This document shows positions 2,660 to 33,711 of a DNA stretch of 33,711 nucleotides, one piece after another. This DNA is from Anaeromicrobium sp. GTDB taxonomy: Bacteria; Bacillota; Clostridia; Peptostreptococcales; Thermotaleaceae. The notes under the pieces are model-generated. The model ran no database searches, was not told the origin of the DNA, and saw only the letters and a list, made by a program, of their open reading frames with translations. How positions within the stretch are numbered: the first letter of the stretch is position 1; each line of letters begins with the position of its first letter. The stretch is from assembly GCF_025210435.1 (NCBI RefSeq), contig NZ_JAOART010000144.1:1-33711 (forward strand), in the 5' to 3' direction. The position numbers and the translations under genes are program-made.

Positions 2660-3670
2660 ATGAAAAAAATATTAGGTATCATATTAATATGTACCATGAT
2701 AATGGGATTAATGGTTGGGTGTGGAAGTACACCAACTACACAAGAGGAACCTAATGCAGAAGAAAAGGTTGTAGAAGAACCTAAGGATGAAAAAATTGTA
2801 ATAGGATTTTCTCAGATAGGTGCAGAGAGTGGATGGAGAACAGCTGAGACTGAATCAGTTAAAAAGACTTGTGAGGAAGACCCAATGATTGAGTTGAAGT
2901 TTTCAGATGCTCAGCAAAAACAAGAAAATCAAATAAAAGCACTTAGATCATTTATAGCTCAAGAAGTAGATCTTATAGCTTTAGCTCCTGTTGTGGAATC
3001 TGGATGGGAGACAGTTTTAGGAGAAGCTAAGGATGCAGGAATTCCAGTCATATTACTAGATAGACAAGTAAGTGTGGCAGATGAAAGTCTATTTACTAGT
3101 TTCATTGGATCTGATTTTGTACTTGAGGGAGAAAATTCTGCTAAATACTTAATTGAAAAATTTGGTGCTGATACGAAAGTTAATATAGTAGAGTTGCAAG
3201 GTACTGTAGGTGCTAGTGTGGCTAACGATCGTAAAAAGGGATTTGAAAATATAGTTAATAATAATGATAATTATAAAATTATAAAATCTCAATCTGGAGA
3301 TTTTACAAGGGCAAAGGGTAAAGAAGTAATGGAAGCTTTCTTAAAGGCTGAAGGTAAGAAGATAAATGCATTATATGCCCATAATGATGATATGGCACTT
3401 GGTGCTATTCAGGCTATAGAAGAATATGGATTAGTTCCAGGGGAAGATATAGTTATAGTTTCTATAGACGGAGTTAAGGATGCGTTTTTATCCATAAAGG
3501 AAGGGAAATTAAATTGTACAGTAGAATGTAACCCATGCTTAGGACCTCAATTAGTAAAAGCGGCTAAGGATTTAAAGGATGGAAAGACTTTACCTAAGTG
3601 GATTAAGTCTGAAGAAGATGTTTATTATGGACAAAAGGCTATAGATGCCATACCAAGTCGTTCGTATTAA
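2660..3670 (+). CDS. ytfQ: Sugar ABC transporter substrate-binding lipoprotein, YtfQ-like
   Basis: Extracellular sugar-binding lipoprotein of the LacI-like periplasmic-binding-protein family (336 residues). A lipoprotein signal ending in a lipobox-like GCG (Cys at about residue 21) is followed by an acidic linker and the two-lobed binding domain. Segments GFSQIGAESGWRTAET, QQKQENQIKA, ELQGTVGASVANDRKKGF, SQSGDFTR and YAHNDDM closely match remembered E. coli YtfQ, the galactofuranose-binding protein, so a furanose form of galactose or a similar sugar is likely. The ribosome site GGGGGAGAGG precedes the ATG. It is first in the operon, and a stem-loop separates it from the ATPase gene, which usually gives extra binding protein. 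It is very similar to the second half of the protein at 10321-12162. Confidence 0.93.
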   Translation: MKKILGIILICTMIMGLMVGCGSTPTTQEEPNAEEKVVEEPKDEKIVIGFSQIGAESGWRTAETESVKKTCEEDPMIELKFSDAQQKQENQIKALRSFIAQEVDLIALAPVVESGWETVLGEAKDAGIPVILLDRQVSVADESLFTSFIGSDFVLEGENSAKYLIEKFGADTKVNIVELQGTVGASVANDRKKGFENIVNNNDNYKIIKSQSGDFTRAKGKEVMEAFLKAEGKKINALYAHNDDMALGAIQAIEEYGLVPGEDIVIVSIDGVKDAFLSIKEGKLNCTVECNPCLGPQLVKAAKDLKDGKTLPKWIKSEEDVYYGQKAIDAIPSRSY

Positions 3671-10320: not shown

Positions 10321-12162
10321 GTGAAAAAGTTTATAGTATTTATATTAATAATTAGTATTTTCTTAGTTTTAATTAATAATGAAAGTAAAGAGGATGAGGG
10401 CACAAAATATTTAATAGGTATGTCCCAGGCTAATCTATCAGAGCCTTGGCGTATAATGATGAATGAAGATATAAAAGAGGCAGTAAAAAAATATAGGGAC
10501 GTAAAGGTAATATTTACAGATGCAGGACAAAGTAGTAAGAAGCAAATAAATGATGTTGATAAATTATTAGACTATGGTATAGATATATTGATCATATCTA
10601 TGAATAATTCAGAAGATTTAACTCCTATTGTTGAGAATGTATATAAAAAGATACCTGTGATAGTATTAGATAGGCACGTTAAGGGTTATGACTATACGCT
10701 GTTTATAGGTCCAGATAATAAGTTCATAGGAGAGGAAACGGGAAAATTCATAGTAGATATATTAGGAGATAAGGGGGGAGACATTGTAGAAATACAAGGA
10801 TTATTAGGATCACCTCCCGTGTCAGATAGAAGTAAGGGAATGAGAAGTGAAATAAAGAAGAATAAAAACATAAATATAATAGAGACAGTTGTAGCCGATT
10901 GGCAAAAGGATAAGGCAGAAGATAAGATGAGAGAAATAATTAAAAAACATCCTTCTATAGATTTAGTCTGCGCTCAAAGTGATGCTATGGCATTTGGTGC
11001 ATATAAGGGAATCGAGGAAAACAAATTAGGAAATATACATTTTTTAGGGGTAGATGGATTAGCAAATTACAACGGAGGTCTTAGCTTAGTAGAAGAAGGA
11101 ATATTAAAAGGAACGTTCACTTGTCCAACGGGAGGCAAGGAAGCTATAGAATATGCCATGGAGATTTTACAAGGAAAAAAGACCATACCTAAAAAAATTA
11201 TACTTAGGGCAAATAAGATAATAAGGGATAATGTGGGTGAGTATTTAAATAAAAAATATAAAAAAGAGGGAAATGAAGTTAGGGCATCTATTTTATTAGG
11301 TTTTGCCCAAACAGGAATGGAAAGCTCTTGGAGAGATGCAAATGTAAAATCAATAGAAAAGGCTGCTGTTGATTATGGAATAGATTTAGATATGGTATAT
11401 TCAGATAATAGTCAAGAAAAACAAATAAGAATAGTACGGGAATTCATTAGAAAAAAGGTAGATGTTATAGGCCTATCTCCTGTGGTGGAAAGGGGATGGG
11501 AAGAAGTTTTTAAGGAGGCTAAAGAGGCCAATATACCTATTATATTATGTGATAGAAAAGTGACTATAGATGATAACAACCTTTGGACTTCTTTCATAGG
11601 TTCTGACTTTATAGAAGAGGGAAAAAGAGCTGGAAGATGGATGATAGATTATTTTGGTAATAGTAAGGATGTTATAAATATAGTGGAATTGAAGGGAACT
11701 AGGGGAGCCAATCCTGCCATAGAGAGAAAAATCGGTTTTGAAGAAGTACTAAGGGATACATCAAACTTTAAAATAATCAAATCTGAATATGCTAATTTTA
11801 GAATGGATATGGGTAAAAGTGTTATGAAAAACATACTTAATCAGGAGAAGGGAAAAATAGATGTGGTCTATGCCCATAATGATGATATGGCATTAGGTGC
11901 AATTACAGCTATAGAGGATTATGGTCTAGAGCCAGGGAAAGATATAATAGTAATATCTATAGATGGTACTGTACCAGCGTTGAAGGCCCTTGCTGCTGGA
12001 AAATTAAACTTTGCTGTGGAGTGTAATCCTGTATTAGGTCCTCAAATCATGGAGGTAACCAAGGACTTATTTGAAAATAAGGAAGTGCCAAAGCAAATAA
12101 TCACAGAAGAAGAAGTATTTACTCAGGAAAATGCAAAAAAGGAATTACTGACAAAATATTAA
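10321..12162 (+). CDS. Membrane-anchored tandem sugar-binding-protein sensor
   Basis: 613 residues comprising two complete LacI-like periplasmic-binding modules in series behind one N-terminal hydrophobic segment (residues 3-19). No lipobox Cys is present, so it is probably a signal anchor facing outward. Module 1 spans about 31-310 (GMSQANLSEPWR, VLDRHVKGYDYTLFIGPDN, AQSDAMAFGAY); module 2 about 324-613 (GFAQTGMESSWR, QEKQIRIVREFI, ELKGTRGANPAIERKIGF, YAHNDDMALGAI, SIDGT). Module 2 resembles the YtfQ-like protein at 2660-3670 much more closely than it resembles module 1. GTG 10321 follows the regulator's stop directly (GGAAG 7 bases upstream). The context points to an accessory sensor for the YesM-type kinase, analogous to clostridial XylFII with LytS; this is inference. 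Confidence 0.88.
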   Translation: MKKFIVFILIISIFLVLINNESKEDEGTKYLIGMSQANLSEPWRIMMNEDIKEAVKKYRDVKVIFTDAGQSSKKQINDVDKLLDYGIDILIISMNNSEDLTPIVENVYKKIPVIVLDRHVKGYDYTLFIGPDNKFIGEETGKFIVDILGDKGGDIVEIQGLLGSPPVSDRSKGMRSEIKKNKNINIIETVVADWQKDKAEDKMREIIKKHPSIDLVCAQSDAMAFGAYKGIEENKLGNIHFLGVDGLANYNGGLSLVEEGILKGTFTCPTGGKEAIEYAMEILQGKKTIPKKIILRANKIIRDNVGEYLNKKYKKEGNEVRASILLGFAQTGMESSWRDANVKSIEKAAVDYGIDLDMVYSDNSQEKQIRIVREFIRKKVDVIGLSPVVERGWEEVFKEAKEANIPIILCDRKVTIDDNNLWTSFIGSDFIEEGKRAGRWMIDYFGNSKDVINIVELKGTRGANPAIERKIGFEEVLRDTSNFKIIKSEYANFRMDMGKSVMKNILNQEKGKIDVVYAHNDDMALGAITAIEDYGLEPGKDIIVISIDGTVPALKALAAGKLNFAVECNPVLGPQIMEVTKDLFENKEVPKQIITEEEVFTQENAKKELLTKY

Positions 12163-12405: not shown

Positions 12406-13869
12406 ATGAATTTATTAGGTTTTGGAGTTCAAGTTACTACGGGAATAAGTATTATATTCATATTAAATATGATACTTGCTTTCATAGTTATATTTTTTGA
12501 GAGAAAACATCCCTCTTCAACTTGGGCATGGATAATGGTATTATTACTTATTCCTGTTATGGGATTTATACTTTATTTATTATTTTCTCAAAATTTAAGT
12601 AAGAGAAAATTATTTAAGTTGAGAAAAGAAGAAGAAGAAATAACCACTATGATGAAAGAACATCAATTGAAAAGTATCAATGAAGGAAATATTCAATTTA
12701 AAGATCCTTCCATGGGTCAATATAAAGACATGATGAGAATGAATTTATTAGAAGATAATGCTGTACTTAGTCAGGACAATCATATAGAAATATTTAAAGA
12801 TGGAGAAACGAAGTTTAAAGAACTTATAGAATCTATAAAAAATGCCAAGGATCATATTCATGTGATGTATTATATTTTTAGAAGAGATGAAATTGGAATG
12901 AAAATAGTAAATGCACTTATAGACAAGGCTAAAGAAGGGGTAGAAGTAAGGTTTATATACGATGCCGTAGGAAGTAAGTTTGTAAAGAGAAAAGCCTTTA
13001 AAGATTTACAAGAAGCAGGTGGAAAGGTAGAATTATTTTTTCCATCATCCATACCCATAATAAATCCTAAGGTAAACTACAGAAATCATAGAAAAATAGT
13101 AGTAATAGATGGGAAAATAGGATTTGTAGGTGGATTTAATGTGGGGGATGAATATTTAGGCCTAGATAAAGAATTAGGATACTGGAGAGATACCCATTTG
13201 AAAATAAAGGGTGGAGGGGTAGGAGGATTACAATATAGATTCATATTAGATTGGCGTTTTGTAGCTAATGAGCCTATGGATGATCTATATAGATATTTTC
13301 CCATAAGAAAATCACATGGAGAAGCAGGAGTTCAAATAGTTTCTAGTGGGCCTGATTCTCAAAAGGAACAAATAAAATATGGATATATTAAGATGATAAA
13401 TGAAGGAAAGAAAAATATTTATATACAAACTCCATATTTTATACCAGATGAAAGTATGTTAGAGGCTTTGAAAATAGCTGCTTTATCTGGAGTAGATGTG
13501 AAAATAATGATTCCAAATAAACCAGATCATATATTTGTACATTGGGCTAGCTATTCCTATGTGGGAGAACTATTAGATGCAGGAGCTAAAATTTATTTAT
13601 ATGAAAAGGGATTTTTGCATGGTAAAACTTGTGTTGTAGATGGAAAAGTAGCCACTGTAGGAACGGCTAACTTAGATAATAGGAGTTTTAAATTGAACTT
13701 TGAAGTGAATGCATTTATATACCATAGAAAAACAGCAAAGGAATTAGAAGATATATTTTTAGATGATCTAAAGGAATGTAGAAAAATTACTAAGGAAGAA
13801 TATAAAAATAGATCTAAATTAATTAAATTTAAAGAATCAATATCTAGGTTAATAGGTCCTCTTTTATAG
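12406..13869 (+). CDS. cls: Cardiolipin synthase (phospholipase D family)
   Basis: Membrane enzyme that joins two phosphatidylglycerol molecules into cardiolipin and glycerol. Its 487 residues match the family's usual length: two N-terminal membrane helices (about 10-62), then two phospholipase D HxKxxxxD motifs, HRKIVVID (about 227-234) and HGKTCVVD (about 405-412), each with the downstream GG/GT-x-N residues (GGFNVGDEY, GTANLDNRSF). The ribosome site AAGGAGG sits 5 bases before ATG 12406, and a -10 TATAAT lies at 12370-12375 with no convincing -35. The end (RLIGPLL) looks natural for the family, but the TAG stop codon coincides with the first three bases of the 233-bp repeat starting at 13867. 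Confidence 0.95.
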   Translation: MNLLGFGVQVTTGISIIFILNMILAFIVIFFERKHPSSTWAWIMVLLLIPVMGFILYLLFSQNLSKRKLFKLRKEEEEITTMMKEHQLKSINEGNIQFKDPSMGQYKDMMRMNLLEDNAVLSQDNHIEIFKDGETKFKELIESIKNAKDHIHVMYYIFRRDEIGMKIVNALIDKAKEGVEVRFIYDAVGSKFVKRKAFKDLQEAGGKVELFFPSSIPIINPKVNYRNHRKIVVIDGKIGFVGGFNVGDEYLGLDKELGYWRDTHLKIKGGGVGGLQYRFILDWRFVANEPMDDLYRYFPIRKSHGEAGVQIVSSGPDSQKEQIKYGYIKMINEGKKNIYIQTPYFIPDESMLEALKIAALSGVDVKIMIPNKPDHIFVHWASYSYVGELLDAGAKIYLYEKGFLHGKTCVVDGKVATVGTANLDNRSFKLNFEVNAFIYHRKTAKELEDIFLDDLKECRKITKEEYKNRSKLIKFKESISRLIGPLL

Positions 13870-14099
13870 ATTTCTGGTGTATAAACTTGCTTTATGCGGG
13901 CCTATTTCAGGAAACTATTGAAAATCTTTTCCACCCAAGTCCTTGTCACAAGCGAAAGTGTGAATCTTCGTAGATAGGTTCACGTGTCATGTTCAAGTAG
14001 CATAGGATGTTGTGACGTTCCAGGGTTCCAAAGATTTTCAATATATTTTCCCTTATAGGCAAGTTACTGTATAAAGAAAGCTTAGTGTTCATAAATCTA
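13867..14099 (+). repeat. 233-bp structured repeat, copy A
   Basis: Begins TAGATTT and ends AAATCTA, flanked on both sides by TA. Contains no ORF of note. Predicted pairings: GCCTAT (13900) with ATAGGC (14055); TTGAAAATCTTT (13919) with AAAGATTTTCAA (14030); ACCC (13933) with GGGT (14023); GTCACAA (13945) with TTGTGAC (14010). Inside these lie two hairpins: GTGAATC (13960) with GGTTCAC (13977), and ATGTT (13989) with AGCAT (13999). The core CACCCAAGTCCTTGTCACAA and the segment GTTGTGACGTTCCAGGGTTC are the same in the other full copies. Its first three bases are the cls stop codon. Confidence 0.9.
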
Positions 14100-17191: not shown

Positions 17192-17424
17192 TAGATTTAT
17201 TATTTGGAAACTTACTTTATGTGAGCCTACTTCAGGAAAATATATTGAGAATTTTTTCCACCCAAGTCCTTGTCACAAGCGAAAGTGTGAATCTTAGTAG
17301 ATAGGTTCATGAGTCATGTTGGAGTAACATAGGATGTTGTGACGTTCCAGGGTTCCAAAAATTTTCAATGGTTTCCCTTATAGGCAAGTTACTGTATAAA
17401 GAAATCTTAATGTTACCAAATCTA
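17192..17424 (+). repeat. 233-bp structured repeat, copy B
   Basis: Same length and end sequences (TAGATTT, AAATCTA) and flanking TA as copy A. Bases 8-17 are diverged from the other copies, but the core is nearly identical. The small hairpin is ATGTT/AACAT here against AGCAT in A and C, turning a T-G pair into T-A. It occupies most of the 417-bp divergent gap between the hydrolase and pelD genes, so it lies between their promoters. Confidence 0.9.
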
Positions 17425-17503: not shown

Positions 17504-17587
17504 AGAAAAGAAAGGTCATTTAATGAAAAGTGGGCAAAATAAATTATATGAATTAATTTTCCTTCTTTTGTAAAGGTGGCATATAAA

Positions 17588-19771
17588 ATGAAAGTTTTGA
17601 TTACTGGCGGTTATGGATTTATTGGATCCCATGTGGCAGATAGATTTTATAAAGAGGGACATGAAATCTATATAATAGATAATCTTTCAACGGGAAAAGC
17701 TGAAAATGTATCTGTGAAGCATAAATTCTACAAACTAAGTATTGAAGATAAAAAGTGTGAAGAAATATTTAAATTAAATAAATTTCATGCAGTAATTAAC
17801 CTGGCAGCCCAAGTAGATGTGAACATGTCTTTAAAAAATCCCCAATTAGATACTCAAGTGAATATTTTAGGATTAGTCAATTTGCTAGAGTTATCAGTAA
17901 AATATGGAGTGAAAAAATTTATTTTTGCATCTTCAGCAGCAGTATATGGAGAAAACAAAATACTACCCCATAGGGAAAATAGTAAAACCAGTCCTATTTC
18001 TCCCTATGGAATGAGTAAATTAATGGGAGAGTATTATTGCAATAAATGGAATGAAATCTATGGACTCAATACCATATCCTTTCGATTTTCCAATGTATAT
18101 GGACCTAGGCAAGGGGCGAAGGGAGAAGGAGGAGTAGTTTCTATTTTTTTAAAGAAACTTATGAGGGGAGATAAATTAATTGTATTTGGAGATGGGAAGC
18201 AAACGAGGGATTATATATATGTGGGAGATATAGTTGATGGAATATATAAAAGTACCATCTTATCCCATATTAATGGTGTGTATAATCTATCTACAAATAC
18301 CCAAAAGAGCTTAAATGATTTATTAGAAGCTTTAAAACAGATTAAAACTATAGAAGAGATTATCTATGAAGAGAAGAGGAAGGGGGATATTCTTCATTCT
18401 AGATTAGATAATAATAGGGCAAAAAAGGATCTTAACTGGACAAATATTTATTCCTTAGAAGAGGGCCTGTCTAAAACCTATAGATGGTATAGGGAAAATT
18501 ACAAATTAAACCATGAGCATAATAGTGAAGAAATTAAAGGGAAAAATAAAAAAAGATTTAACAGATTAATAAGAAGCCTACTACCCTATGGTGAAAATAT
18601 ATTAATATTTGCAATACTATTTTATATGTGCTCAAAGGGCATTGGAACAAGTTTATTAAACAATGATCTATATACATTCCTAAGTATAATTTATATAGGG
18701 TTCATGGGCATACTATATGGTAAGAAGCAATCTAGTATATCCATATTCTTATCTATTATTTTGTATGTATTTGGATACTTAAGGGTAGGTGGAGATATGA
18801 TCGTATTGTTTTATGAACCTAAACATTTAATAATAATAGGTATATATTTTTTAATAGGAACCACAACAGGATATACCCTTGATAAAAAGAATCGAGCATT
18901 AGATTTTAAGGAATTAGAAATAAATGCTTTAAAGGAAAAATATACTTTTTTATATGAAATTTATGGTGAAACGAGAAAATTAAAGGATGAATTTGAAAAA
19001 CAGATAGTAAATTCAAAGGATAGTTTTGGAAAAATATATAGTATTGTTGATGAACTAAAATATCTAGAAAAGGAAAAGGTATATAGTGGGTGTATAGGTG
19101 CCATAGAAACCATAATGGAAACGGATGAGGTAGCAGTTTATACAATTAGTCCTAGGGGAGAGTTCTTAAGATTAAAAGCTAAATCAAGGAAAAACCATTC
19201 AAAAATATCTAACTCTATAGATTTAAGTGGTCTAACAGAAATTAAAAATATGATTGAAAAAAAAGAAATATTTATAAATGATAATTTAAAGGAAAATCTT
19301 CCTATTATGGCAGCCCCCCTTTTAAATGAAAAGAAAATATTTGGAATAATTGCAATATATAAAGTGGAATTTGAAAAACTAACCTTATATTATGAAAATT
19401 TATTTAAAATTTTAGTAAGTTTAATATCTGACTCCCTTTCTAGGGCACATGTTCATGAAGAAAGAATCCTTTCTGAAAAGTACATGGAAGATACTTTTGT
19501 TTTAAAAAGTCATGAATTTGAAAATGTACTAGGAACTATTAAAGAAAAGTATGAAAAATTTCATATGGATTATTTGTTATTAAGAATTAACAACCTAGAA
19601 TCTTATAAAAAAATAAGTGAAAAATTAAAACCTATCATAAGGACAGATGATTATATAGGCCTTAGAACGGACAATAAACTCTATTTATTACTAACTAATG
19701 CAAAGGTTAAAGATATGGACATAATAAATGAAAAGCTAAATAAAAGGGGCATTCATGTGTCCTTATTATAG
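17588..19771 (+). CDS. pelD: Epimerase-PelD fusion: sugar-nucleotide epimerase plus c-di-GMP receptor
   Basis: A 727-residue fusion. Residues 1-310 form an extended short-chain dehydrogenase/epimerase (GGYGFIGSH NAD-binding motif; SSAAVYGE; active-site YGMSK with Tyr about 140 and Lys about 144), probably a UDP-GlcNAc/UDP-GalNAc 4-epimerase of the PelX/GalE type. Residues about 335-445 hold four membrane helices, then a coiled coil, a GAF domain (about 485-620) and a degenerate GGDEF domain (about 650-727). In the last, RTDD (about 685) keeps the RxxD c-di-GMP inhibitory site, but the GGDEF motif is replaced by RTDNKL, so it should bind and not make c-di-GMP. AAAGGTGG (17572-17579) sets ATG 17588; the upstream GTG lies inside that site. 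The TAG stop coincides with the left end of repeat C. Confidence 0.88.
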   Translation: MKVLITGGYGFIGSHVADRFYKEGHEIYIIDNLSTGKAENVSVKHKFYKLSIEDKKCEEIFKLNKFHAVINLAAQVDVNMSLKNPQLDTQVNILGLVNLLELSVKYGVKKFIFASSAAVYGENKILPHRENSKTSPISPYGMSKLMGEYYCNKWNEIYGLNTISFRFSNVYGPRQGAKGEGGVVSIFLKKLMRGDKLIVFGDGKQTRDYIYVGDIVDGIYKSTILSHINGVYNLSTNTQKSLNDLLEALKQIKTIEEIIYEEKRKGDILHSRLDNNRAKKDLNWTNIYSLEEGLSKTYRWYRENYKLNHEHNSEEIKGKNKKRFNRLIRSLLPYGENILIFAILFYMCSKGIGTSLLNNDLYTFLSIIYIGFMGILYGKKQSSISIFLSIILYVFGYLRVGGDMIVLFYEPKHLIIIGIYFLIGTTTGYTLDKKNRALDFKELEINALKEKYTFLYEIYGETRKLKDEFEKQIVNSKDSFGKIYSIVDELKYLEKEKVYSGCIGAIETIMETDEVAVYTISPRGEFLRLKAKSRKNHSKISNSIDLSGLTEIKNMIEKKEIFINDNLKENLPIMAAPLLNEKKIFGIIAIYKVEFEKLTLYYENLFKILVSLISDSLSRAHVHEERILSEKYMEDTFVLKSHEFENVLGTIKEKYEKFHMDYLLLRINNLESYKKISEKLKPIIRTDDYIGLRTDNKLYLLLTNAKVKDMDIINEKLNKRGIHVSLL

Positions 19772-20001
19772 ATTTCTGGTGTATAAACTTACTTTATGTG
19801 AGCCTATTTCAGGAAAATATTGAAAAATTTTTCCACCCAAGTCCTTGTCACAAGCGAAAGTGTGAGTCTTCGTAGATAGGTTCATGATTCATGTTGGAGT
19901 AGCATAAGATGTTGTGACGTTCCAGGGTTCCAAAAATTTTCAATCTATTTTCCCTTGTAGGCGAGTTACCGTATAAAGAAATCTTAGTTTTACGAAATCT
20001 A
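19769..20001 (+). repeat. 233-bp structured repeat, copy C, inside the pel operon
   Basis: Full-length copy with the same ends and flanking TA. It starts on the pelD stop codon and ends 5 bp before the pelE ribosome site, so the pelD-pelE gap is almost entirely this element, whereas all later pel genes overlap or lie within 4 bp of each other. Relative to copy A the helix pair C(13927)-G(14033) is T-A here; in the GTGAATC/GGTTCAC hairpin the changes A to G (left) and C to T (right) both leave G-U pairs. Confidence 0.9.
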
Positions 20002-32363: not shown

Positions 32364-32406
32364 CCTCATAGACTCACATAAAGCAAGTTCATAATAAATA
32401 AATCTA
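32364..32406 (-). repeat. Left-end fragment of the 233-bp repeat, inverted
   Basis: Read on the minus strand it begins TAGATTTATT and continues AACTTGCTTTATGTGAGTCT, matching the first 43 bp or so of the 233-bp element (copy D has AACTTGCTTTATGTGAGCCT). Flanked by TA. The rest of the element is missing. It lies about 15 bp upstream of the -35 of the Crp-like gene. Confidence 0.7.
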
Positions 32407-32429
32407 TATTAGTAAATTATTTTTCAATG

Positions 32430-33591: not shown

Positions 33592-33711
33592 TAGATTTCT
33601 GGTGTATAAACTTGCTTTATGTGAGCCTATTTCAGGAAACTATTGAAAATCTTTTCCACCCAAGTCCTTGTCACAAGCGAAAGTGTGAATCTTCGTATAT
33701 AGGTTCATGTG
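33592..33711 (+). repeat. 233-bp structured repeat, copy D (cut by window end)
   Basis: The first 120 bp of the element, with only about four differences from copy A (for example TTTATGTGAG against TTTATGCGGG). It has the TAGATTT end and the flanking TA on the left. Its left helix arm carries the same TTGAAAATCTTT as copy A, so the right arm beyond the window should read AAAGATTTTCAA if the fold is conserved. Confidence 0.88.

Follow-up and report, generated by a model that had tools for sequence, protein, structure and literature searches.

RUP of Streptococcus pneumoniae is among the closest described systems to the element analysed here. According to parts of two papers (PMC2229807, PMC3049150) it is likewise a short repeat without genes, with a TA target and a base-paired transcript, and its ends resemble those of the resident IS630-type element IS630-Spn1; nevertheless, RUP is a simple 107-bp unit, and the likeness is one of description. 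ERIC, Correia (NEMIS) and BOX repeats are also small and mobile, form long stem-loops and have been proposed to affect mRNA, but they belong to other hosts, and the passages on them in the same papers describe them without a branched core that covaries between divergent subfamilies (PMC2229807, PMC3049150). Again by description, bcr1-bcr18 of the Bacillus cereus group are similar in being MITE-like and present in high copy number; a portion of them has a conserved secondary structure and is transcribed within UTRs and operons, as excerpted from PMC3446304, where no figure for orientation is given. IS200/IS605 elements and Tn7 moved by TnsE share with our element an orientation following replication (PMC5371812, in part), but differ in ends and target, and neither machinery was found tied to the repeat. 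In the titles and abstract beginnings of the open-licence literature no description of this repeat was recognised. We take the element to be an IS630-type MITE, a known kind, but in an unusual version, with its middle kept as a fold and its copies facing replication.

The window, i.e. the whole analysed stretch of 33,711 nucleotides of Anaeromicrobium sp., contains three full copies of 233 bp, named A (13867..14099), B (17192..17424) and C (19769..20001), and a fourth copy D (33592..33711), which is cut by the window end, identical with the contig end. Profile search and alignment confirmed this arrangement, with all four on the + strand, as it had been read by the earlier note. A lone left-end fragment on the - strand (32368..32408) was found as inverted repeat I1. 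Copy A extends on the + strand from the left terminal repeat TAGATTT (13867..13873) to the right terminal repeat AAATCTA (14093..14099), is flanked by TA at both ends, and holds a branched core at 13930..14029 (+), delimited by single-sequence folding and covariation. The TAG of the left end serves as stop codon of the upstream gene for copy A (gene 12406-13869) and copy C (gene 17576-19771); in 7 of 116 full-length copies, the element contains the end of an open frame of at least 120 codons. No promoter or terminator beyond chance was found around copy A. Elsewhere in the window, 2660-3670 and 10321-12162 encode paralogous proteins, visible as direct repeat D3 (78%), which we take to resemble sugar-binding transport proteins; the window repeat 3359-3471 / 11854-11966 was discarded as a stretch common to two paralogous proteins.

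Searching the source genome (G000, 3.96 Mb) with a 32-base core pattern and up to 3 mismatches, 201 places were found (112 on the + and 89 on the - strand), and 0 with the reversed pattern as control; a 24-base pattern yielded 232 places. Many contigs of this genome start or stop inside an element copy. A 29-base pattern was present in 2 of 17 family genomes and the 24-base pattern in 2 of 298 order genomes, the source genome included in both cases. R1, a covariance model built on the core, found matches in 3 of the 17 family genomes: the source genome with at least 150 scored matches, its congener G001, the sole other genome of the genus among the 17, with 41 of E 0.001 or lower, and a Marinisporobacter metagenome assembly (G009) with three. 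The same three among 248 order genomes matched R2, the model built from the source genome and the congener; scoring covered 14 candidates in each genome, and the lack of matches in the others is therefore weak evidence where distant copies are concerned. Among the matches listed in a wider contig scan were two contigs of Marinisporobacter and a stretch from Thermodesulfobacteriota, the latter rejected as a chance match since by eye its sequence is unlike the repeat. A plasmid or phage origin was also set aside: blastn gave no match, and two core patterns had no exact match in IMG/VR.

The ends are those of a MITE of the IS630/Tc1-mariner type. TAGATTT and AAATCTA form terminal inverted repeats with nine perfect bases counting the TA, and of the 71 copies that carry unaltered TAGATTT and AAATCTA close to their termini, 60 have TA on both sides. 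Tandem neighbouring copies have one TA in common. A coding function was ruled out, as no long reading frame exists; the longest stop-free frames have medians of 26-39 aa (74 copies). Dispersed copies with no long frame agree with a short MITE that lacks a transposase gene. An IS630-type transposase, supplied in trans, would mobilise the element. Three PF13358 matches for such a transposase were found in the source genome, two above cut-off, of which one is interrupted by an internal stop. At four contig ends of this genome the right end of one IS630-type element was observed, 95.7-100% identical over the matched part, and the IS630-type pieces terminate in TATAGATTTC, same as the MITE ends, with a likeness that is not significant past the first nine bases (250/2000 shuffles as good). 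No complete IS630 copy is assembled in the source genome. In the congener no PF13358 match was found, which counts against an IS630-type transposase as mobiliser of its copies; the Marinisporobacter assembly has one clear PF13358 match, without a TAGATTT end nearby.

Movement as a single strand by a Y1 transposase of the IS200/IS605 or REP type was considered and appears highly improbable. The orientation of IS200/IS605 recapitulates replication in the portion of PMC5371812 used here, as would be expected from this explanation. Y1_Tnp frames are also present, two of ~294 and 315 aa each in the source genome and the congener, and one of 132 aa in addition in the source genome. Against this stand the inverted-repeat ends and TA flanks, by which the element falls outside both IS200/IS605 and REP, the finding of an element copy in the examined flanks of 1 of 5 Y1 loci, and the Marinisporobacter assembly, which holds its element copies with no Y1_Tnp match. 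The IS200/IS605 family is not known for inverted repeats at the termini or for TA at both flanks. As an observation in its own right, the Y1_Tnp proteins of ~300 aa, two per species (L272:1465-2370 and L274:1468-2352 in the source genome, L271 and L273 in the congener), are possible REP-type transposases.

Comparing orthologous places of both species, flanks of source-genome copies located 20 places in stretches of the congener, 83-93% identical. Thirteen of these were empty, with gaps of -6 to 109 bp, so that copies moved or were lost; emptiness can also reflect loss. At three places the compared stretch of the congener carried an element of its own type, at the same TA, beside it, or in a 1.3-kb gap, and the remaining four were ambiguous, one of them clean when compared by letters. 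In the reverse direction, 7 of 11 places of congener copies had no element in the source genome, and the other four showed two weak remnants and two elements of the source-genome type. Junction letters were compared for nine empty places in the congener and three in the source genome; small differences at several junctions make the two-base TA duplication visible mainly from the flanks. At one orthologous place (L216:6340-6680 in the source genome, L268:10970-11360 in the congener) elements of different subfamilies occupy the same TA in the same orientation, a result of replacement, conversion or repeated insertion. The adjoining sequence contains the palindrome CGTTTCACGTGAAACATT, presumably parS-like. 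Another congener locus, L156:1501-1790, carries a head-to-tail pair of core copies that are identical to each other and recur at a period of 163 bases, with N at the joint.

The fold proposed by the earlier note, an outer helix followed by ACCC/GGGT and GTCACAA/TTGTGAC helices closing on two hairpins, is present in the fold of copy A. On the + strand the two inner helices lie at 13933-13936 / 14023-14026 and 13945-13951 / 14010-14016, and the hairpin GTGAATC/GGTTCAC at 13960-13966 / 13977-13983. The AGCAT arm of the second hairpin (13999-14003, +) has two alternative partners, either upstream ATGTT at 13989-13993 (models R1 and R2, 85% of cells paired) or downstream 14007-14011 (chosen by RNAalifold with 32 divergent copies; 338/385 cells paired in a separate count). 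Copy A reaches a folding energy of -72.2 kcal/mol, whereas its dinucleotide shuffles average -46.5 (z -6.6; 0/200 as stable); the opposite strand folds too (-63.6, z -5.5). An invariant GAAA, also claimed, was found only in part: constant in the window copies, it varies in other copies. ACCC, a paired stretch, is likewise constant only in the window copies and is represented elsewhere by ATTG, ATCT, ATCG, AAGG or AGTG. Some copies of the source genome combine ACCC/GGGT arms of different subtypes, which are unpaired, and perfect pairing is therefore not required for a copy to exist.

The branched fold is real and conserved through great sequence change. Copies of the congener are highly divergent in sequence and nevertheless retain the helices. 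In 54 rows (50 distinct), all from the congener except for one Marinisporobacter row and none used in building R1, the R1 alignment had 83.4% of cells paired compared to 73.9% in shuffled and 40-48% in slid controls, and a covariation score of 0.234 versus 0.093. For both genomes together 89.1% of cells were paired versus 77.2%, and helix 2 showed all of C-G, G-C, U-A and A-U with 95.3% of cells paired. We are aware of the fact that R1 and R2 alignments are fitted to structure; the cleaner test is MAFFT alignment with tree simulation. For the tests of covariation, tree simulation and strand energy, 77 of 140 unique sequences (less than 95.5% alike) were used. Mapping the 53 pairs of the single-sequence fold of copy A onto the MAFFT alignment of these 77 divergent copies, 81% of cells were paired versus 57% and 62% in two nulls, and 410 compensatory cells were counted versus 130 and 122, with 0/200 simulations reaching either value. 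Thirty pairs had a double change, which is beyond one null (0/200) but not the other (78/200). Among 11,935 column pairs the fold holds 8 of the best 10, 9 of the best 20 and 13 of the best 50. With an R-scape-like null no single pair covaried at E 0.05, the best reaching 0.08. RNAalifold did not recover the structure from 51 MAFFT-aligned copies with flanks, the opposite strand scoring better; from 32 divergent trimmed copies the fold was recovered, with the opposite strand slightly better (-49.5 vs -47.8).

Thus, changes between copies that keep the pairing, first noticed in the window, were borne out over many copies by the aggregate tree-aware test and the model alignments; the call for covariation was answered by the aggregate (0/200) but by no individual pair. 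The earlier note had also named, as the finding that would speak against a structured RNA, a MITE conserved solely in its terminal inverted repeats. Indeed, the repeat is MITE-like with TA and terminal repeats, but it has a covarying branched core besides, and because the fold is kept by compensatory change in a divergent subfamily, the inverted repeats are not its sole conserved feature.

Whether this fold acts as RNA or as DNA was approached from its identity and from strand comparisons. A named RNA family was ruled out, in agreement with the first reading: neither the window nor a copy from the congener had an Rfam match at gathering score, and one match to CRISPR-DR19 (E 2.8) was at chance level. 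Tolerance of G-U pairs, previously taken as a sign of selection on RNA, held for the occupancy of cells in the core helices, but not for mutation events. Core helices 3-5 contained 208 G-U and 23 A-C cells, and five core pairs had at least 10 G-U cells and none at least 10 A-C cells; such counts measure inheritance, not mutation events. Tree-based single changes out of Watson-Crick pairs numbered 86 to G-T and 60 to A-C in the source genome (74 distinct full copies), versus 45 and 65 in the two-genome set; as the two data sets disagree, G-U events were dropped as RNA evidence. Using RNA parameters, the + strand folded better in 26 of 31 sequences of the source genome and in 14 of 46 from the congener and the Marinisporobacter assembly. 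With DNA parameters, neither strand was favoured (+ better in 15/31 and 21/46, respectively). In our reading, the core contains a + strand fold, of RNA or single-stranded DNA, set in a palindromic stem that favours neither strand; the support for one strand is moderate. An RNA that stands alone or has a function is at most a candidate.

These data bear on the possibility that the element is an ordinary IS630-type MITE, the fold being a by-product of quasipalindrome template switching and the orientation resulting from asymmetric ends and a fork-loving transposase. During replication, one palindrome arm would correct the other, yielding compensatory changes without selection. We regard this as possible, if rather unlikely. 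It agrees with the outer helices 1-2, which lack a G-U preference (9 G-U and 15 A-C cells), with the equal DNA-parameter folds of both strands, with the existence of copies lacking the core, and with double-stranded transposons known to insert in fork orientation, such as Tn7 by TnsE (PMC5371812, in part). Template switching nevertheless leaves unexplained the branched core itself, the excess of G-U in the core pairs, and the unpaired AAGTC and GTTCC conserved across subfamilies.

Profile matches in 1.13 Mb of the source genome comprised 105 full copies, 20 cut by an end, 17 with the left end only, 15 with the right end only and 8 otherwise partial. In 1.44 Mb, 128 full-length copies were found versus 5 core-less ones, whose left and right arms adjoin directly (L098:15187-15299, L211:6449-6558, L222:19220-19313, L249:14714-14810, L306:10269-10384). 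The junction is nearly the same in all five, the left arm reaching profile position 60-69 and the right arm starting from 181-184. The core-less form may have spread, or one deletion, bounded by short TTTTCC repeats, may have arisen several times. That five copies share this junction argues against the core being strictly required, although copies with the core are far commoner.

Copies are strongly oriented with respect to replication. Replication direction was inferred from GC skew, with the strand of positive skew taken as leading. In 1.44 Mb of the source genome and 0.83 Mb of the congener, 197 of 224 copies have their + strand on the leading strand, versus 60.9% for RUP and 60.8-63.3% for pneumococcal BOX, RUP and SPRITE, values mirroring coding bias in the part of PMC3049150 cited. 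Of 228 copies, four with a local GC skew below 0.05 had been dropped; the tests on neighbouring genes left out 51. The bias persisted with the copies masked (143/165 and 54/59), and the leading-strand share was similar in thirds of profile score, a rough stand-in for copy age (33/36, 35/37 and 32/37), which speaks for an origin of the bias at insertion or by very early selection. An asymmetric target motif setting the orientation was rejected, none being found within 20 bases. Work by Gomez et al. from 2014 is said to have dealt with transposon orientation and the sliding clamp. The section of PMC5371812 considered describes an orientation following replication for IS200/IS605, for Tn7 moved by TnsE and for several further IS families, so that an orientation bias per se has precedents; for IS630-type elements, no published figure was found in the open-licence literature.

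Genes were taken from our own open-frame calls (at least 120 codons) and not from annotation; in 1238 of 1612 gaps both neighbours run along the leading strand. A role in cis has been weighed, in which + strand RNA would insulate or process the mRNA of neighbours and selection would remove copies opposing transcription. Between co-directional genes, 136 copies point the way of the genes versus 13 pointing against them, and gene terms add to the regression (LR 10.5, p 0.005), as such a role would predict; the G-U tolerance of the + strand core helices and the action on mRNA proposed for ERIC, NEMIS and BOX, in the parts of PMC2229807 and PMC3049150 cited, point the same way. Replication, however, is the stronger predictor with the larger weight (LR 25.5, p 4e-7), and in mixed-direction gaps, where genes are uninformative, 24 of 28 copies follow the leading strand (p 0.0002), which genes do not explain. 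Moreover, the eight copies found in operons on the lagging strand are evenly divided, 4:4, between following the genes and following the fork, the third with the best profile scores shows the same bias as the other two, and + strand RNA is the more stable in only the 14 of 46 non-source sequences given above. Altogether, we consider a role in cis quite doubtful.

We therefore return to the MITE with a conserved fold. In our opinion, the chances are evenly balanced that the element is a non-autonomous IS630-type MITE of ~233 bp, mobilised in trans, inserting at forks and aided by its fold in spread or tolerance. The preferred place of insertion would be the replication fork, the + strand lying in the template for lagging-strand synthesis. 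How the fold helps the element we infer as follows: the folded + strand, as single-stranded DNA at the fork or as RNA, would favour either the spread of a copy or its tolerance by the host. A stricter version, in which mobility depends on the branched fold because the + strand, as single-stranded lagging template or RNA, is recognised and insertion at the fork is one-way, seems unlikely to us. If true, it would constitute a fold-dependent branch of IS630-type transposition, not a passive pair of DNA ends.

Descriptions of small bacterial MITEs mostly concern the ends and a stem-loop. In the present element the middle keeps a branched fold, and the copies adhere to the direction of replication far more strictly than those pneumococcal repeats for which figures have been published. 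The combination of fold and orientation makes testable the role of a folded DNA or RNA strand in transposition, or in the tolerance of repeats within operons.
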